The position numbers were made by a program, and so were the translations under genes. A stretch of 47,437 nt of DNA, from positions 1 to 47,437 of the forward strand of contig CABMIB010000014.1 of NCBI GenBank assembly GCA_902386135.1. The letters run 5' to 3'. Origin of the DNA: an uncultured archaeon. Lineage in GTDB: Archaea > Halobacteriota > Methanosarcinia > Methanosarcinales > Methanoperedenaceae. Below the pieces are notes generated by a model that worked only from the letters and a program-made list of their open reading frames with translations, made no database searches and was not told the origin of the DNA. Shown here piece by piece: positions 2,072 through 42,061 of this stretch. Each line of letters begins with the position of its first letter. Position 1 is the stretch's first letter.

Positions 2072-2251
2072 GGCTTTAATTGCTCTTTGATATATAAACA
2101 TCATCTATTAAGAGAAAAGAGGAAAATGGAACTCTTTCCTTTGGGAAGTTTAAAGGGCTGCTCTTTTTTATTTGGTGATTCTTAATAGAGGGAAATACCA
2201 AAGCGAGCCTAAACGCAAGCGAGGGCGAGGTAGAGAACGAAAGATGAAATA

Positions 2252-2333
2252 CACTTCCATATTCTTCCATATGGTTATTCGAGTTTCCATTTGTTTCCAT
2301 TCTCTTCTATAATGCTTTCATTTTCTTCTATAG
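2252..2333. repeat. Left iteron cluster, about seven 10-bp units
   Basis: Tandem units fit KYTTCCATWT with 10-11 bp spacing (for example ACTTCCATAT, TCTTCCATAT, GTTTCCATTT, GTTTCCATTC, TCTTCTATAA). The helical-turn spacing suggests binding on one DNA face by an initiator, partition or recombinase protein. A sister cluster in the same orientation lies at 36845-36925. Both are preceded by a copy of AGAGAACGAAAG. Confidence 0.6.
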
Positions 2334-2403
2334 CCAGCAATCTAATAAAAAACCTATGTTTTGCTTATTAACCATTTTTATGCGTTTAAGCCAAATAGTG
2401 GAA

Positions 2404-2435
2404 AAAGGCTTTAAAAGCCTTTCTTTGTTTTAAAA
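2404..2435. terminator. Intrinsic-terminator-like hairpin
   Basis: AAAGGCTT (2404-2411) and AAGCCTTT (2415-2422) form an 8-bp stem with a 3-nt loop, followed by a T-rich tail. No gene clearly ends here on the + strand. Confidence 0.4.
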
Positions 2436-2540
2436 TTTTAAAAGTAGACCAAATAAAATTATCATAAATAGCTGATTGTCCACTTCACAACCGTATTTGA
2501 ACGGTTAGAATGGAAGTATACAATTATCACTTTATTTAAC

Positions 2541-2753
2541 ATGAGATCACTCAAGCGGGTTTTTGAAAAAATAAAAAGAGAGTATCCTTACTGGTCGGAT
2601 TATATTTGCTTCTTTCATGCAGTCTTCCGGAAGGGTTTTTCAGAAAAGACCATATCCCGAAATTTTAACAGATTAGTGGACAAGGATGATTATCCAAAGG
2701 AAAAGAAAAATGAGATTCTAAAGTGGCTCTTTAGATTTTCTCAAGGAGTATAA
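2541..2753 (+). CDS. Small hypothetical protein
   Basis: 70 aa, charged and aromatic-rich (YPYWSDYICFFHAV; FNRLVDKDDYPKEKKN). No known domain is certain. From memory, similar short proteins occur beside serine recombinases in Patescibacteria/CPR genomes, which would fit the bacterial look of the next genes; this is unverified. It lies between the two 42-bp direct repeats and is convergent with the serine recombinase. No strong Shine-Dalgarno is seen. Confidence 0.45.
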   Translation: MRSLKRVFEKIKREYPYWSDYICFFHAVFRKGFSEKTISRNFNRLVDKDDYPKEKKNEILKWLFRFSQGV

Positions 2754-2759
2754 AAGTAG

Positions 2760-2801
2760 CCTGTGGAAGGTCGGTTTTTGGGGTTAACTCACGATTTAAG
2801 A
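2760..2801. repeat. 42-bp direct repeat, copy 2
   Basis: Identical to 2030-2071. It lies between the small gene ending at 2753 and the recombinase terminator. Confidence 0.8.
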
Positions 2802-2841
2802 AGGTTTAATTGTTTTTCGGGATATAATGTCCTCTTATTAA

Positions 2842-2867
2842 AAATAGAGGCTAAAAAGCCTCTATTT
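2842..2867 (-). terminator. Strong terminator of the serine recombinase
   Basis: AAATAGAGGCT (2842-2852) and AGCCTCTATTT (2857-2867) form a perfect 11-bp stem with an AAAA loop at the 3' end of the recombinase gene. The flanking A/T runs would let it act in both directions. Confidence 0.75.
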
Positions 2868-4480
2868 CATTTTGCTAAAATCTCAGGATTAGGAACTGAT
2901 TTTAACAGATTTTGTACCAACCCAAATGAAGGAGAATCCATGGAGTCCATCAAATGTTCGAAGATATCCTTTTTAGTGGACTTAACAGGATAATGTTCGA
3001 ACACAAGATTCGGGAAAAGAGTATGGATTTTCTTGGCTTTGTCTTTTAGAAGAAAATCAAATGGCGGATTGAGTTCTATCTTGCTGATGGTTTTGTCCTT
3101 AACCCATATTCTTTTGAATATAGCTTTAGCTAAGTTCTTTTTCTGCCTGAAACTAAAGATTTTATTTAAACCTGATAGGGTTCCGGCTAGAATCATGCAT
3201 TTATCAATAAAGTCAAAGTTTGAGCTATAGTCCTTTTCCAAGACCGCTAATCTGTCCTGAGCATTCTTGATCTCTTTTTCATATTTCTGGCTGTATTTCT
3301 TGTATGTTTCAGAAGTAATGGTCTTTGTAGCTAAATTATCAACAAGGGTATCCATTTTAGCCTCCGTCTCTGATATTTTTCTCTTGAGGTTTGATAGCTC
3401 ATTTTTTGATTTGGTCTGGACGTTCTTCTGGGTCTCTTCTATTTCCAGCTTCAGGAGCTTTAAAAGTTTGTTTTCTGGCTCTAATAGATTATACAGTGTT
3501 TCAATCTGGCTTTCAAGAGCTTTAACCGGAATATATTTCTGGGAACATTTATGGTTTAGACTGCTCTGGCATCTGTAGTAGTGGCCTCTAGGATGGACTT
3601 CCGCGGTTAGCCGTCTCTGGCAATTCTGGCAGTAAACCAAGCCTCGTAAAAGAAAATCTCGTGTTTGCCATTTATCCTGAGTGATCTTTCTCTCTGAGAG
3701 AACATTTTGAACCTGGCTAAAAAGGCTTTCTTCAATAATTGGCTTGTGTATCCCTCGAATCTCTTTGCCCCATATAGCCATTTTGCCAATATAAAACTTG
3801 TTTTGAAGGATACTTTTCATCTGCTCAGGACCAATAAGGTTATCCGTCTTTGTTTTTAAGCCCCTTTTTCCCATTTCTTCAGATAGAGAGCCAAAAGAAT
3901 ATCTTCCAGTGGCGTAAAGCGTGAAAAGCTGTTTAATAAGATACGAGGTATTTTTATCCTCGATTACTTGGGAATGATCTTGCTTATCCCTTATGTTTTT
4001 GTAACCAAGGGGAGCTTTAAGAGGCCATTCTCCTCGTTCAAACTTTTCTTTCATTCCTTTTAGGACTTCTTCAGCCAGATTGGAGGAATAAAATTGAGCC
4101 ATGGAAATAAGCACGTTTTCAATAAATTCGCCGGATGGAGTTTCCTCGATATTTTCTGAAACTGATAAAAGCCTGATGCCTTCTTTTTTTAAGATGGCTT
4201 TGTAAGCAAAGAAATCAATGTTGTTTCTGGAGAATCTGTCAATCTTGTGGACAATCACCGCTTCAATGGTCTTGTCTTTCTGGCATCTTTTAATGAGCTT
4301 TCTGAACTCCGGTCTGTCGCTTGTTTTAGCAGATTCGCCTTCATCCCTGTATTCTTCTAAAATCCTAAAGCTATGGGAAGAAGCATATTCCCTTATGGCT
4401 TTGAGTTGAGCCGGAATGGATAAACCTTTTTCCGCCTGTTCTTTGGTTGAAACTCTCGCGTAAGCTAAGGCATTCTTCAT
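2867..4480 (-). CDS. Large serine recombinase
   Basis: 537 aa. The N-terminal resolvase domain has the nucleophile context YARVSTKEQ (Ser about residue 11), then SRNNIDFF in the catalytic fold. The recombinase domain covers about 155-265. A zinc ribbon at about 300-345 has paired cysteines (YCQNC ... RCQSS ... KCSQK). A coiled coil (about 370-450) and a basic tail follow. Length and order are typical of large serine integrases that catalyse directional site-specific integration or excision. Its att sites are not recognisable; the 42-bp repeats nearby are too long and identical to be typical LSR attL/attR. It may be the integrase of a nested bacterial-type element. Confidence 0.9.
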   Translation of the reverse strand: MKNALAYARVSTKEQAEKGLSIPAQLKAIREYASSHSFRILEEYRDEGESAKTSDRPEFRKLIKRCQKDKTIEAVIVHKIDRFSRNNIDFFAYKAILKKEGIRLLSVSENIEETPSGEFIENVLISMAQFYSSNLAEEVLKGMKEKFERGEWPLKAPLGYKNIRDKQDHSQVIEDKNTSYLIKQLFTLYATGRYSFGSLSEEMGKRGLKTKTDNLIGPEQMKSILQNKFYIGKMAIWGKEIRGIHKPIIEESLFSQVQNVLSERKITQDKWQTRDFLLRGLVYCQNCQRRLTAEVHPRGHYYRCQSSLNHKCSQKYIPVKALESQIETLYNLLEPENKLLKLLKLEIEETQKNVQTKSKNELSNLKRKISETEAKMDTLVDNLATKTITSETYKKYSQKYEKEIKNAQDRLAVLEKDYSSNFDFIDKCMILAGTLSGLNKIFSFRQKKNLAKAIFKRIWVKDKTISKIELNPPFDFLLKDKAKKIHTLFPNLVFEHYPVKSTKKDIFEHLMDSMDSPSFGLVQNLLKSVPNPEILAK

Positions 4481-13653: not shown

Positions 13654-13777
13654 TTTATACAAAACCTGCTAGCAATTAAGCTTTTCGATTAATAACTACG
13701 GATGCGAAACACTTGCATTTAACACATATTTAACAATCATAAGTTTTTAAGTGCAACAGAGTTGTTTAAGAACGCTA

Positions 13778-13838
13778 GTGGGCAGGTAAAAATTTTGTTT
13801 TTCAATACACGCTTTACCCACTCCCCCAACCTGTCCAC
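13778..13838 (+). ncRNA. GTGGGCAGG panhandle RNA candidate, copy 1
   Basis: GTGGGCAGGT (13778-13787) pairs with ACCTGTCCAC (13829-13838), with one G-U. The predicted product of about 61 nt has a conserved AAAAATTTT after the 5' arm and a C-rich 3' side. A TATA-like TTTTTAAG (13744-13751) lies about 30 nt upstream, and the upstream 22 nt are almost identical to copy 4. Confidence 0.6.
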
Positions 13839-13904
13839 TAAATTCTCTTGTAAATATCAAGCCGACCGCCAACGTTATATACGAATAAGTTGTTTGGCTT
13901 ACCT

Positions 13905-13959
13905 GTGGGCAGGCAAAAACTTTTTTAACACACTAACCCCCACTCCCCAGCCTGCCCAC
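13905..13959 (+). ncRNA. GTGGGCAGG panhandle RNA candidate, copy 2
   Basis: GTGGGCAGGC (13905-13914) pairs perfectly with GCCTGCCCAC (13950-13959). Compared with copy 1, the tenth pair changed from T-A to C-G, a compensatory change. A TATA-like TTATATAC (13875-13882) is about 27 nt upstream. Confidence 0.6.
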
Positions 13960-14108
13960 TATCTTTATTGTATCTTTTCCCGAATTAAAATAATTTTTTA
14001 AAGGTTATGCTCATAACTATCATTAGTATTTATACATAAATATATAAACTAAGCCGTTGTGTATTTGTGCCGGATATAGAAGAACAAAAAAACGAGAGTG
14101 GGATTATC

Positions 14109-14134
14109 GGGGGAGAAATAAATTGTTCTCCCCC
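14109..14134 (+). ncRNA. GGGGAGA hairpin element, copy 2
   Basis: GGGGGAGAA (14109-14117) pairs with TTCTCCCCC (14126-14134), an 8-nt loop. It precedes panhandle copy 3 by about 85 nt, as copies 1 and 3 of this hairpin also precede panhandle RNAs. Confidence 0.5.
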
Positions 14135-14219
14135 CTTCCTCTGAATAAAAACATATGCTAAATGCATATGTTTGACAATCACAGGTTTTTAAATATAACA
14201 AAATTATCTAAGAATGTTT

Positions 14220-14313
14220 GTGGGCAGGTAAAAATTTTTAAATACCGATAGCTTTATTCACGTATTTTCCTCACCCCTGCCCACCAAGCTCTATTGTGAT
14301 AAGGTAGCAATAG
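14220..14313 (+). ncRNA. GTGGGCAGG panhandle RNA candidate, copy 3, with second hairpin
   Basis: GTGGGCAGG (14220-14228) pairs with CCTGCCCAC (14276-14284). A second hairpin follows, CTATTG (14291-14296) with CAATAG (14308-14313), shared with copy 4. A TATA-like TTTTTAAATA (14186-14195) lies about 29 nt upstream. Upstream of that is a palindrome, ACATATGCTAAATGCATATGT-like, around 14150-14171. Confidence 0.6.
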
Positions 14314-36988: not shown

Positions 36989-37840
36989 TTAACTTGGCAG
37001 TATTGCCTTTATCCTATCCTCCACATCAATCTCCTGGTTTTTCTTCAGCCGAAAAGCAAGCCCGCATTTAGGGCACTGAACTTTAATATGATCAGGTTTA
37101 GTGCCGAATACCTTGTCGTAAGCCTTTTTACGGTCATCTACTGCAAACTGTAGGTAAATGGCAGTAGTACCCAGGTCTTCATGTCCTAACTGCTGTTGCA
37201 GCGTTCTTAAGTCCATTCCATGCTGAATACAATAGATAGCATGTCCATGCCTGAATTTATGGGCACTGACCCACGACAATCCTACCTTTTCCCTGAGCTT
37301 CTCGATAAACAGTTTTGCACCATTCTCATTAAGATTGATGATTTTATCGTTTACCTTCAAAGAATATCTCTTTATATGCTCTTGAATCAGGTTCAAGGTA
37401 TCCGAATCTATTACTATCGTTCTCGGTTTTAGTTCGCAAGATTTTACATTTTTACCATATATCGCAATAATCCTATCCTTAAAGACAATGTCTTTAACCC
37501 TGATGCCGTGATGCTCTTTTTGCACATAGGTAACAAGATAAGGACATTTACTATCTATGCAAATCTTATCATCCTTTATGGCACTCCATTTTGGACATCT
37601 TCCTTTTCGTTTGTTAAAGCCAGGAAAAAGGCATTGTGTATATGGTCTTTTTGGTGTGCCTACAATCTCAGCGATTCTTGCGCCAGTAAAGAATAAGAGT
37701 CGAATAAACAGAGAATACTCACCTTTTCTGGCACGTTTTAATACTGCACTGTTCTCATAATCTTTGGCAGTCTGTTCTAGTTTTAAGAAGTCCTCATACT
37801 TTACATAAGTACTTAAATTTTTCATTGCGTCTGATACCAT
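36989..37840 (-). CDS. Tyrosine recombinase (integrase) with zinc-binding insert
   Basis: 283 aa from the ATG at 37840 (GAAGG 7 nt upstream); an in-frame ATG at 37894 would extend it by 18 aa. Catalytic landmarks are GARIAEIV (first Arg), HKFRHGHA (HxxR), LGHEDLGTTAIYLQF (Gly-His, and Tyr nucleophile). A cysteine-rich insert (CLFPGFNKRKGRCPKW ... CIDSKCPY) and a C-terminal CPKCGLAFR suggest zinc ribbons. The gene starts 92 bp from the right core, the usual place for an integrase beside its att site. Confidence 0.9.
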   Translation of the reverse strand: MVSDAMKNLSTYVKYEDFLKLEQTAKDYENSAVLKRARKGEYSLFIRLLFFTGARIAEIVGTPKRPYTQCLFPGFNKRKGRCPKWSAIKDDKICIDSKCPYLVTYVQKEHHGIRVKDIVFKDRIIAIYGKNVKSCELKPRTIVIDSDTLNLIQEHIKRYSLKVNDKIINLNENGAKLFIEKLREKVGLSWVSAHKFRHGHAIYCIQHGMDLRTLQQQLGHEDLGTTAIYLQFAVDDRKKAYDKVFGTKPDHIKVQCPKCGLAFRLKKNQEIDVEDRIKAILPS

Positions 37841-37915
37841 TTTGCAGCCTTCTAACAATTTTAAAGGCTTAGAATGGGAATATAAGGTATACACTGCCTT
37901 TAATAAGTAAAATAA

Positions 37916-38440
37916 GGCTTATTAAAGGCTATATCGCCTGTCATTGGTGTAATCCTCATGGTGGCGATCACTGTCATATTAGCGGCTGTAATTGCAGCGT
38001 TCGTGTTCGGCCTGGGCGGTCAGCAGTCTGCTGCACCGACTGCAAGTATAGTGGCAGCAAATAACCCAGATACAACCAGCATAGACCTGAAGATACAGCA
38101 CAAAGGTGGAGATACACTGAAAGGCGGAGACTGGAAGTTATCCATAGTCCCTGTTGGGAAATCGCCTAATTTCGTGATTTCACAGACAGGAAACAATCTG
38201 GCAGTTGGAGCGCAGATAATAACTTCAAATGTAACAACAAATGGCAGTTGGGTAGTGACCACTAACCCCCAGGGCGTTAATGTAACCAACACAAATGTAT
38301 ACATTGGTGGTGCATTGGGTAATGGTGGTGATGTTACGTTACCAGGAAACGACTTGGTATCAGGTCAGAAGTACGACATTAAGCTGGTTCACGTCCCGTC
38401 CAACGCAATGTTGCTTGATACTGTGGTTGAAGTAAGGTAG
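37916..38440 (+). pseudogene. Pilin A2, headless host pilin body
   Basis: Open frame from a stop at 37913-37915, but no ATG/GTG/TTG before the conserved helix (codons ...KAISPVIGVILMV). The body is intact through DTVVEVR. It is closely similar to pilin A1 in the first 30 and last 30 residues and diverged in between. It has no leader peptide and no promoter in place, so it should be silent unless the element leaves or rearranges. A start at the internal ATG (37958) would lack the prepilin leader. Confidence 0.75.
37932..37998. other. Right attachment core (attR candidate)
   Basis: Identical to 629-695 over 67 bp, and after one mismatch over 27 bp more. Excision between the two would rebuild one intact pilin gene with the A2 body and release a circle of about 37.3 kb. 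Confidence 0.75.
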
Positions 38441-38475
38441 GGCAAATTTTTATGCCCTCTTTTTACTTTTTTCGG
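38440..38475 (+). terminator. Hairpin plus T-tract after pilin A2
   Basis: GGGCA (38440-38444) pairs with TGCCC (38453-38457), followed by a T-rich tract. The same as at 1097-1130, and again holding the ATG of the next pilin. Confidence 0.6.
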
Positions 38476-39000
38476 GGGCAACTTGATTTTTATTTTAATA
38501 AATTTAAAACAAATTGCAATGCTGTATCTCCAGTCATTGGAGTTATACTGATGGTAGCAATTACTGTGATCGTGGCGGCAGTGGTTGCGGTGTTTGGATT
38601 TGGATTTACTGGTAGTTTCGGCGGTGCAAGTCCAAAACCACCTACTGCGGCTATTACAGTAGCAAGTATTCCTGAAACTATTGGAATTGTCGATATGAAA
38701 ATAACGGATAGAGGTGGGGATACCTTGAGAGCAGGTGATTGGGAGTTGTCCATAGTACCTGTAGGACAGCCGCCTGCATATCGGGTTTCAAGCACTTTAT
38801 TCAAAGCTGGAGACCAGATAATCACTACGAATGTGACCAACTATCCAGGTGCTACGTATAATGTAACCAATGCGGTGGTCAACATAACCGCTGGCGACGA
38901 TCCTTCTGCAAGGCTTGTGTCCGGGCAAAAGTACGATGTTAAGATGATAGTCTATCCGTTCAAGAGCATGGTGCTTGATACGGTGGTTGAAGTAAGGTGA
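38452..39000 (+). CDS. Type IV pilin-like protein B2 (host copy)
   Basis: 182 aa, paralogue of B1. Same N-terminal stretch, CNAVSPVIGVILMVAITV helix and DTVVEVR end, with a diverged middle (TNYPGATYNVTNAVVNIT). The ATG lies in the terminator hairpin after pilin A2. In the present state no promoter upstream is evident, so expression is doubtful. The intergenic DNA between A and B is almost identical in both pairs even though the bodies differ. Confidence 0.75.
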   Translation: MPSFYFFRGQLDFYFNKFKTNCNAVSPVIGVILMVAITVIVAAVVAVFGFGFTGSFGGASPKPPTAAITVASIPETIGIVDMKITDRGGDTLRAGDWELSIVPVGQPPAYRVSSTLFKAGDQIITTNVTNYPGATYNVTNAVVNITAGDDPSARLVSGQKYDVKMIVYPFKSMVLDTVVEVR

Positions 39001-39110
39001 GAGGGATTCTCTTTATTAAGGGAAATCCAGCAACCTTCCAGCTAGTTTTTAGCAAGCGTTCAGGAAGGCAGAAGTGTAAAATTGATAGAAAGATAAGGAA
39101 TAATTATTTT

Positions 39111-41797: not shown

Positions 41798-41967
41798 ATT
41801 CACTCCAATCCCTGCCTAAAACATGTCGATTTTTAGACAAGCTTTACTTTATATCTATTGACTACTTAAACTTTTCTATTTGTTTCTAAGGGTGTGAAAT
41901 ACGTGTATTTAACATATATTTGACAATCATAAGCTTTTAAGTGCAACAGAGTTGTTAAATGGTGCTC

Positions 41968-42061
41968 GTGGGCAGGTAAAAATTTTTAAGTACCGATAGC
42001 TTTATTTACTCACTTTCCCCATCCCTGCCCACCAAGCTCTATTGCAACAAGGTAGCAATAG
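41968..42061 (+). ncRNA. GTGGGCAGG panhandle RNA candidate, copy 4, with second hairpin
   Basis: GTGGGCAGG (41968-41976) pairs with CCTGCCCAC (42024-42032). The second hairpin is CTATTGC (42039-42045) with GCAATAG (42055-42061). A TATA-like CTTTTAAG (41934-41941) lies about 30 nt upstream. It is outside the element, so the family belongs to the host lineage as well. Confidence 0.6.

Follow-up and report, generated by a model that had tools for sequence, protein, structure and literature searches.

The analyzed window is an entire contig of 47 kb (47,437 nt) from a 3.24-Mb genome of the genus Ca. Methanoperedens. It contains four plus-strand copies of a short repeat that fold as terminal panhandles, with z-scores of -2.3, -4.3, -4.3, and -3.6 for copies 1 to 4 relative to dinucleotide shuffles. 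An earlier note, made from the letters of this contig, had described these four copies with their pairing arms, and all of them are present where it placed them. Copy 1 (13778..13838; 61 nt; E 5.3e-9) forms 10 bp, including one G-U at pair 5, and its loop has diverged in part. Copy 2 (13905..13959; 55 nt; 10 bp; E 6.3e-12) is the only one of the four with a canonical loop, which contains ACTAACCCCCACTCCCC. The loops of copy 3 (14220..14284; 65 nt; 9 bp; E 6.5e-8), which has G and a weak internal hairpin, and of copy 4 (41968..42032; 65 nt; 9 bp; E 9.1e-9) are diverged. The G-U pair of copy 1 and a compensatory change, U-A in copy 1 to C-G in copy 2 at pair 10, were both read correctly in the note; copies 1, 3, and 4, which it had taken as typical, are degenerate in their loops.

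Each copy is preceded on the same strand by a TATA-like box, identified from its sequence and from the class-wide TATA peak described below: TTTTTAAG at 13744..13751 for copy 1, TTATATAC at 13875..13882 for copy 2, TTTTTAAA at 14186..14193 for copy 3, and CTTTTAAG at 41934..41941 for copy 4. The box is centered at about -26 for copy 2 and at about -30 for the others, in agreement with the claim of a TATA-like box at every copy. In the gap between the TATA box and the RNA, copies 1 and 4 have an inverted repeat AACAGAGTTGTT (13755..13766 and 41945..41956, plus strand), a putative operator. These two copies have 121 bp of upstream sequence in common. A cassette of about 160 bp, duplicated with 83% identity, contains copies 3 and 4. 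The second hairpin reported for copies 3 and 4 does exist: CTATTG pairs with CAATAG 3' of copy 3 (14291..14313, plus strand) and, by sequence and cassette comparison, 3' of copy 4 (42039..42061, plus strand). However, it is common to these two copies only, shows no covariation, and lies inside the cassette, so it is inherited duplicate sequence and adds no independent evidence.

Other repeats are found in the same contig. At 14098-14140 the repeat GAGAGTGGGATTATCGGGGGAGAAATAAATTGTTCTCC forms a strong hairpin, which also occurs 3' of the RNA copy of L017 and thus stands beside two different RNA copies. Five direct repeats with TTATTCCCCACCTCGAACCA (21306, 24573, 29715, 30677, and 33434) are scattered between genes at 21-34 kb. 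Two archaeal type IV pilin gene pairs, at 598-1646 and 37927-39004, are about 37 kb apart and show 87-89% identity across stretches of 240-300 nt. Genes for a serine recombinase (2867-4480, minus strand) and a tyrosine integrase (36989-37894, minus strand) suggest that the region is mobile or recombining. The earlier note had assigned three copies to an element and one to its host; this split is uninformative, because the family is spread over the whole genome and the whole class.

The genome contains 49 occurrences of the arm GTGGGCAGG and five of the reversed word; this excess, together with arm pairing at sites selected by the loop core (see below), shows that the copies are not chance occurrences. 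A first covariance model, built from 17 copies, gave 25 matches in this genome at E < 0.001, i.e., about 25 copies, and matched 58 of 60 related genomes. For a second model, 27 diverse sequences were used, the internal loop repeat being shortened in two rows before alignment. Such a search had been proposed in the note; it yielded matches in 224 of 238 Methanosarcinia genomes, representing 36 of 39 genera, and in 150 of the 151 high-quality genomes of the class (at least 90% complete, at most 5% contaminated). In a sample of the phylum, 84 of 393 genomes matched, and all 84 belong to Methanosarcinia. The four copies thus belong to a family that ranges over the whole class, a scope that the note had underestimated. 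Genomes without a match include every one of the six from a small-genome genus in the Methanosarcinaceae-like family and both genomes of a separate family (f6).

Contigs with matches include those named as Methanothrix, Methanomethylovorans, ANME-2, and Methanoperedens, and some matching genomes are presumably those of M. acetivorans, M. burtonii, Methanosalsum zhilinae, and three Methanothrix species. Most genera have one to five copies per genome, and Methanoperedens has up to 25. Four paralogues of 58, 73, 73, and 91 nt are found in Methanosarcina, all four being present in M. acetivorans, M. barkeri, and a M. mazei-like genome. In the 5,751,492-bp record of M. acetivorans they lie at 4771642-4771714 (minus strand), 5721755-5721812 (plus), 2227633-2227705 (minus), and 2226939-2227029 (minus). 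Orthologous copies in Methanosarcinaceae-type genomes keep their neighbors, whose names were read from protein N-termini: one lies between top6B and rfcL, one has a Sua5-like gene on one side and the Mrp antiporter operon on the other, and one lies beside cofD. The RNA genes are intergenic, stand alone, and occur on either strand relative to their neighbors, an arrangement that speaks against a cis-regulatory leader.

Noise in the model reaches up to about 27 bits, the highest score of palindromes in 56 viral contigs that have exact arms by chance and that we rejected as family members. Since chance palindromes reach this level, first-model matches scoring less than about 30 bits are doubtful, except for C61:18738 with its MsvR promoter. 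A search of plasmids found no relative.

The predicted RNA is 46-92 nt long and consists of a 9-bp terminal panhandle closing a long C-rich loop. Among the 27 sequences of the alignment, 98.4% of stem cells are paired, both sides change in five of nine pairs (39 cells, compared with 11.3 in shuffled alignments), and the covariation score is 0.458, compared with 0.224 +/- 0.021 for shuffles, none of 500 being as high. To select sites blindly with respect to the stem, we took 90 non-redundant sites solely by the exact loop core CTAACCCCCACTCCCC: the arms match perfectly (9/9) at 77, compared with 15 when the 3' arm is reversed and 1.4% in shuffled sequence. Arm types include GTGGGCAGG/CCTGCCCAC, GTGAGCGGG/CCCGCTCAC, GCGAGCGGG/CCCGCTCGC, ATGGGCAGG/CCTGCCCAT, and ACGAGCGGG/CCCGCTCGT. 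The analysis supports the view that these repeats are a structured non-coding RNA family. The earlier note had held that many copies genome-wide without covariation would mean a simple repeat; the copies are indeed many, but their covariation is strong.

The loop contains about 1% G, as measured by a script that admits two G at most. It includes a U4-U7 tract, followed by a C-rich core that is either a near-invariant ACUAACCCCCACUCCCC or an array of C-boxes; Methanosarcina, Methanomethylovorans, and Methanohalobium have repeats of the C-box unit. The 17-nt core of the loop hardly varies across the class, whereas the stem is free to drift in sequence. In some paralogues the CCCCCACUCCCC core is absent and the promoter, the panhandle, and the G-free loop are kept.

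Transcription signals were analyzed for 122 upstream-distinct copies by scoring the best TATA-like 8-mer. In 76 copies its center lies 29 to 27 nt ahead of the first base of the stem, and in 104 it lies within -40 to -22, a range reached by 20% in shuffled sequence. Positions -29 to -27 match the TATA-to-start spacing usual in archaea, and the stem is therefore the expected start of transcription. A TTTT run occurs within 45 nt downstream of the stem in 78 of the 122 copies, compared with 20 upstream, and these T-runs would be compatible with oligo-U termination. A scan for bacterial promoters and terminators was uninformative. The placement of the TATA box, along with the covariation of the panhandle, supports the proposed family of RNAs, each with an archaeal promoter of its own. 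A small leaderless ORF was considered, as 55 of the 122 copies begin with GTG and 28 with ATG. This reading was rejected because the RNA lengths are distributed over all three residue classes modulo 3 and reading frames often end early, after the third codon in 28 copies.

A subset of the Methanoperedens copies has in the gap between the TATA box and the RNA a palindrome GTTCGYRTATATACGAA that matches the MsvR box TTCGTAN4TACGAA. This box was published for Methanothermobacter and M. acetivorans, where MsvR is a redox repressor that represses when reduced (PMC3729527). The Methanoperedens genome that contains the window has three distinct perfect MsvR boxes, all of them at promoters of these RNAs; when up to two mismatches are allowed, about eight of roughly 15 distinct sites are RNA promoters. 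Eight strict boxes (TTCGTAN4TACGAA or TTCGN7-9CGAA) were found at RNA promoters, at -22 to -4, against a background of 0.0027 per 45 nt; these cases include M. nitroreducens ANME-2d and a second genus. Copies 1 and 4 of the window have a different palindrome (AACARARTTGTT / AACAGAGTTGTT) at -23 that also occurs at copies on other contigs. Part of the family thus appears, from these putative MsvR sites, to be under oxygen-stress control in Methanoperedens. The published targets of the MsvR regulon are protein genes, and control of small RNAs was not described there (PMC3729527). The remaining MsvR-type boxes of the genome lie at C1:37604 (a radical-SAM gene beside flavodiiron proteins), at C49:15210 (a DUF1858 gene), and at C62:10577 (near the methyl-coenzyme M reductase D gene, mcrD). 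The boxes at the flavodiiron, DUF1858, and mcrD loci are consistent with a candidate redox regulon of Methanoperedens. We know of no small RNA previously assigned to an MsvR regulon, and RNAs with MsvR boxes would be the first; the boxes point to oxygen or redox stress as a condition in which they can be tested.

Most likely, the family represents stand-alone, stress-controlled regulatory RNAs that act in trans through the loop. Under the proposed mechanism, RNA polymerase would start at or next to the first stem base of each copy, and the 46-92-nt transcript would close on itself, the panhandle sealing both ends and holding out a single-stranded, nearly G-free loop with the U-tract and the C-rich core. 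The U-tract is a plausible Lsm/SmAP site. The loop would act in trans; most likely, it would base-pair with certain mRNAs at stretches rich in G. Because promoters and loops differ between copies, the paralogues may serve different signals, and the RNAs of the MsvR-box subgroup would be made once MsvR is oxidized and off the DNA. To the whole of this reading, i.e., a non-coding RNA gene of its own that starts at the stem, has an MsvR-linked subgroup, and acts in trans by base-pairing of the loop, we assign a probability of about one-half. For prokaryotic sRNAs, pairing with mRNA sites rich in G is favored a priori, and we place it slightly ahead of protein binding.

Several complementarity tests bear on the partner of the loop. 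The complement of the loop showed no enrichment at 901 starts when the core was compared with 60 shuffles, a test with low power for a few specific targets, and the words enriched near starts are ordinary Shine-Dalgarno (SD) words. Perfect 10-nt loop complements are few and common to no gene between genomes, a search that a handful of specific targets would escape. For the MsvR subgroup, whose loop complement contains ATG, candidate targets show little excess over the reversed control and were rejected; near-perfect complementary sites are mostly the RNA genes themselves.

A possible alternative is that the loop is a protein-binding site and the RNA a scaffold or sponge for a protein that reads the U-tract and C-boxes. 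The negative outcome of the generic complementarity tests agrees with it, as do the near-invariance of the core over a freely drifting stem and the repetition of C-boxes inside one loop in Methanosarcina and Methanomethylovorans; moreover, at 17 nt the core exceeds most pairing seeds in length, a point in favor of a protein partner. Its logic is paralleled by CsrB/RsmY RNAs, with a repeated motif, and by Y RNAs, with a panhandle and a protein. Like the CsrB/RsmY-type sponges, the panhandle RNA uses structure to expose a short single-stranded motif in repeated form, but its boxes are C-boxes rather than GGA, it has one closed loop, and there is no known or candidate protein. The paralogues without CCCCCACUCCCC, which retain promoter, panhandle, and G-free loop, fit changing RNA targets better. 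A fuller version, somewhat doubtful in our view, is a class-wide archaeal ribonucleoprotein or sponge RNA in which the U-tract and C-box array bind an RNA-binding protein, with promoter-specialized paralogues in Methanoperedens and one set controlled by MsvR; if true, it would be an RNA layer of redox control in methane-oxidizing archaea.

The preferred base-pairing reading has its own parallels. C-rich-loop sRNAs that act in trans by pairing with the SD sequence are represented by the Staphylococcus UCCC-loop sRNAs and the alphaproteobacterial cuckoo RNAs. These resemble the panhandle RNA in being small, with their own, stress-linked promoters, several paralogues, and a stable stem with an exposed C-rich loop. 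In contrast, the panhandle RNA is archaeal, has a far longer loop and a terminal panhandle, and shows neither anti-SD enrichment nor an intrinsic-terminator hairpin.

To our knowledge, few archaeal small RNAs have been found in more than one genus. The panhandle RNA occurs in nearly every sequenced member of Methanosarcinia, archaea that produce methane from acetate or methyl compounds or oxidize it anaerobically, and its carriers include the genetically tractable Methanosarcina. As the earlier note supposed, this high-copy structured family is absent from Rfam: for the window, Rfam release 15 gave no match at the gathering score and weak unrelated hits only (E up to 5), and there was none on the family members of M. 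acetivorans, Methanothrix, ANME-2, and Methanosalsum, with only tRNAs and an M-box found elsewhere. The latter, a magnesium riboswitch (RF00380; 137 bits), is at L105:3349-3522 (minus strand) in a Methanosalsum-like archaeal genome. No paper describing the family or its core sequence was found in a literature search.

It is nevertheless conceivable, if unlikely, that the family includes an already described sRNA such as M. mazei sRNA41, the new parts being the class-wide distribution and the MsvR link only. More than 200 sRNAs have been mapped in M. mazei, sRNA41 among them as an anti-ribosome-binding-site regulator (PMC5867862), and a Methanosarcina-type genome has four paralogues of the panhandle RNA. 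Nine conserved cold-induced sRNAs are reported for Methanolobus psychrophilus (PMC5378194). Individual copies of Methanosarcina or Methanolobus may already be listed in published dRNA-seq tables, either without a name or as sRNA41. The M. mazei sRNA154, sRNA41, and sRNA162 are likewise small RNAs from the class Methanosarcinia. The loops of sRNA154 and sRNA41 were proposed to mask ribosome-binding sites (PMC5867862), and sRNA154 carries a 20-aa ORF (PMC11456600). Identity with sRNA162 fails, as it is a 191-nt primary transcript found in Methanosarcina only (PMC3510493), in contrast to the short, class-wide panhandle RNA. Against sRNA41, the ACDS ribosome-binding sites are no special partners of the loop, although the RNA does lie near the one ACDS locus found, and the core sequence is not printed in such a context in the literature searched.

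A miniature mobile element or functionless inverted repeat is highly improbable and as a general explanation is refuted: many copies per genome, a terminal inverted repeat, some clustering and duplication, and one viral-contig copy beside an integrase gene would fit it, but stem covariation, a TATA box at fixed distance, presence in nearly all good genomes of the class, often as one to three copies in conserved synteny, and the low scores of same-arm viral palindromes do not.

Two single copies deserve mention. The only viral-contig copy, on L236 (IMGVR_UViG_3300037264_009246, about 41.3 kb), lies at 2053-2109 with its own TATA box and directly adjoins a gene of the integrase family (2121-3512, minus strand) at that gene's 3' end; proviruses may integrate at this RNA gene, as they do at tRNA genes. 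In a M. barkeri-like genome (L411, about 691190, minus strand), TTTAATAACCCCCCAACACCCCCACTCCCCAATAACCGGATGCCC contains a C-rich core without the usual stem and is perhaps a decayed or differently closed relative.
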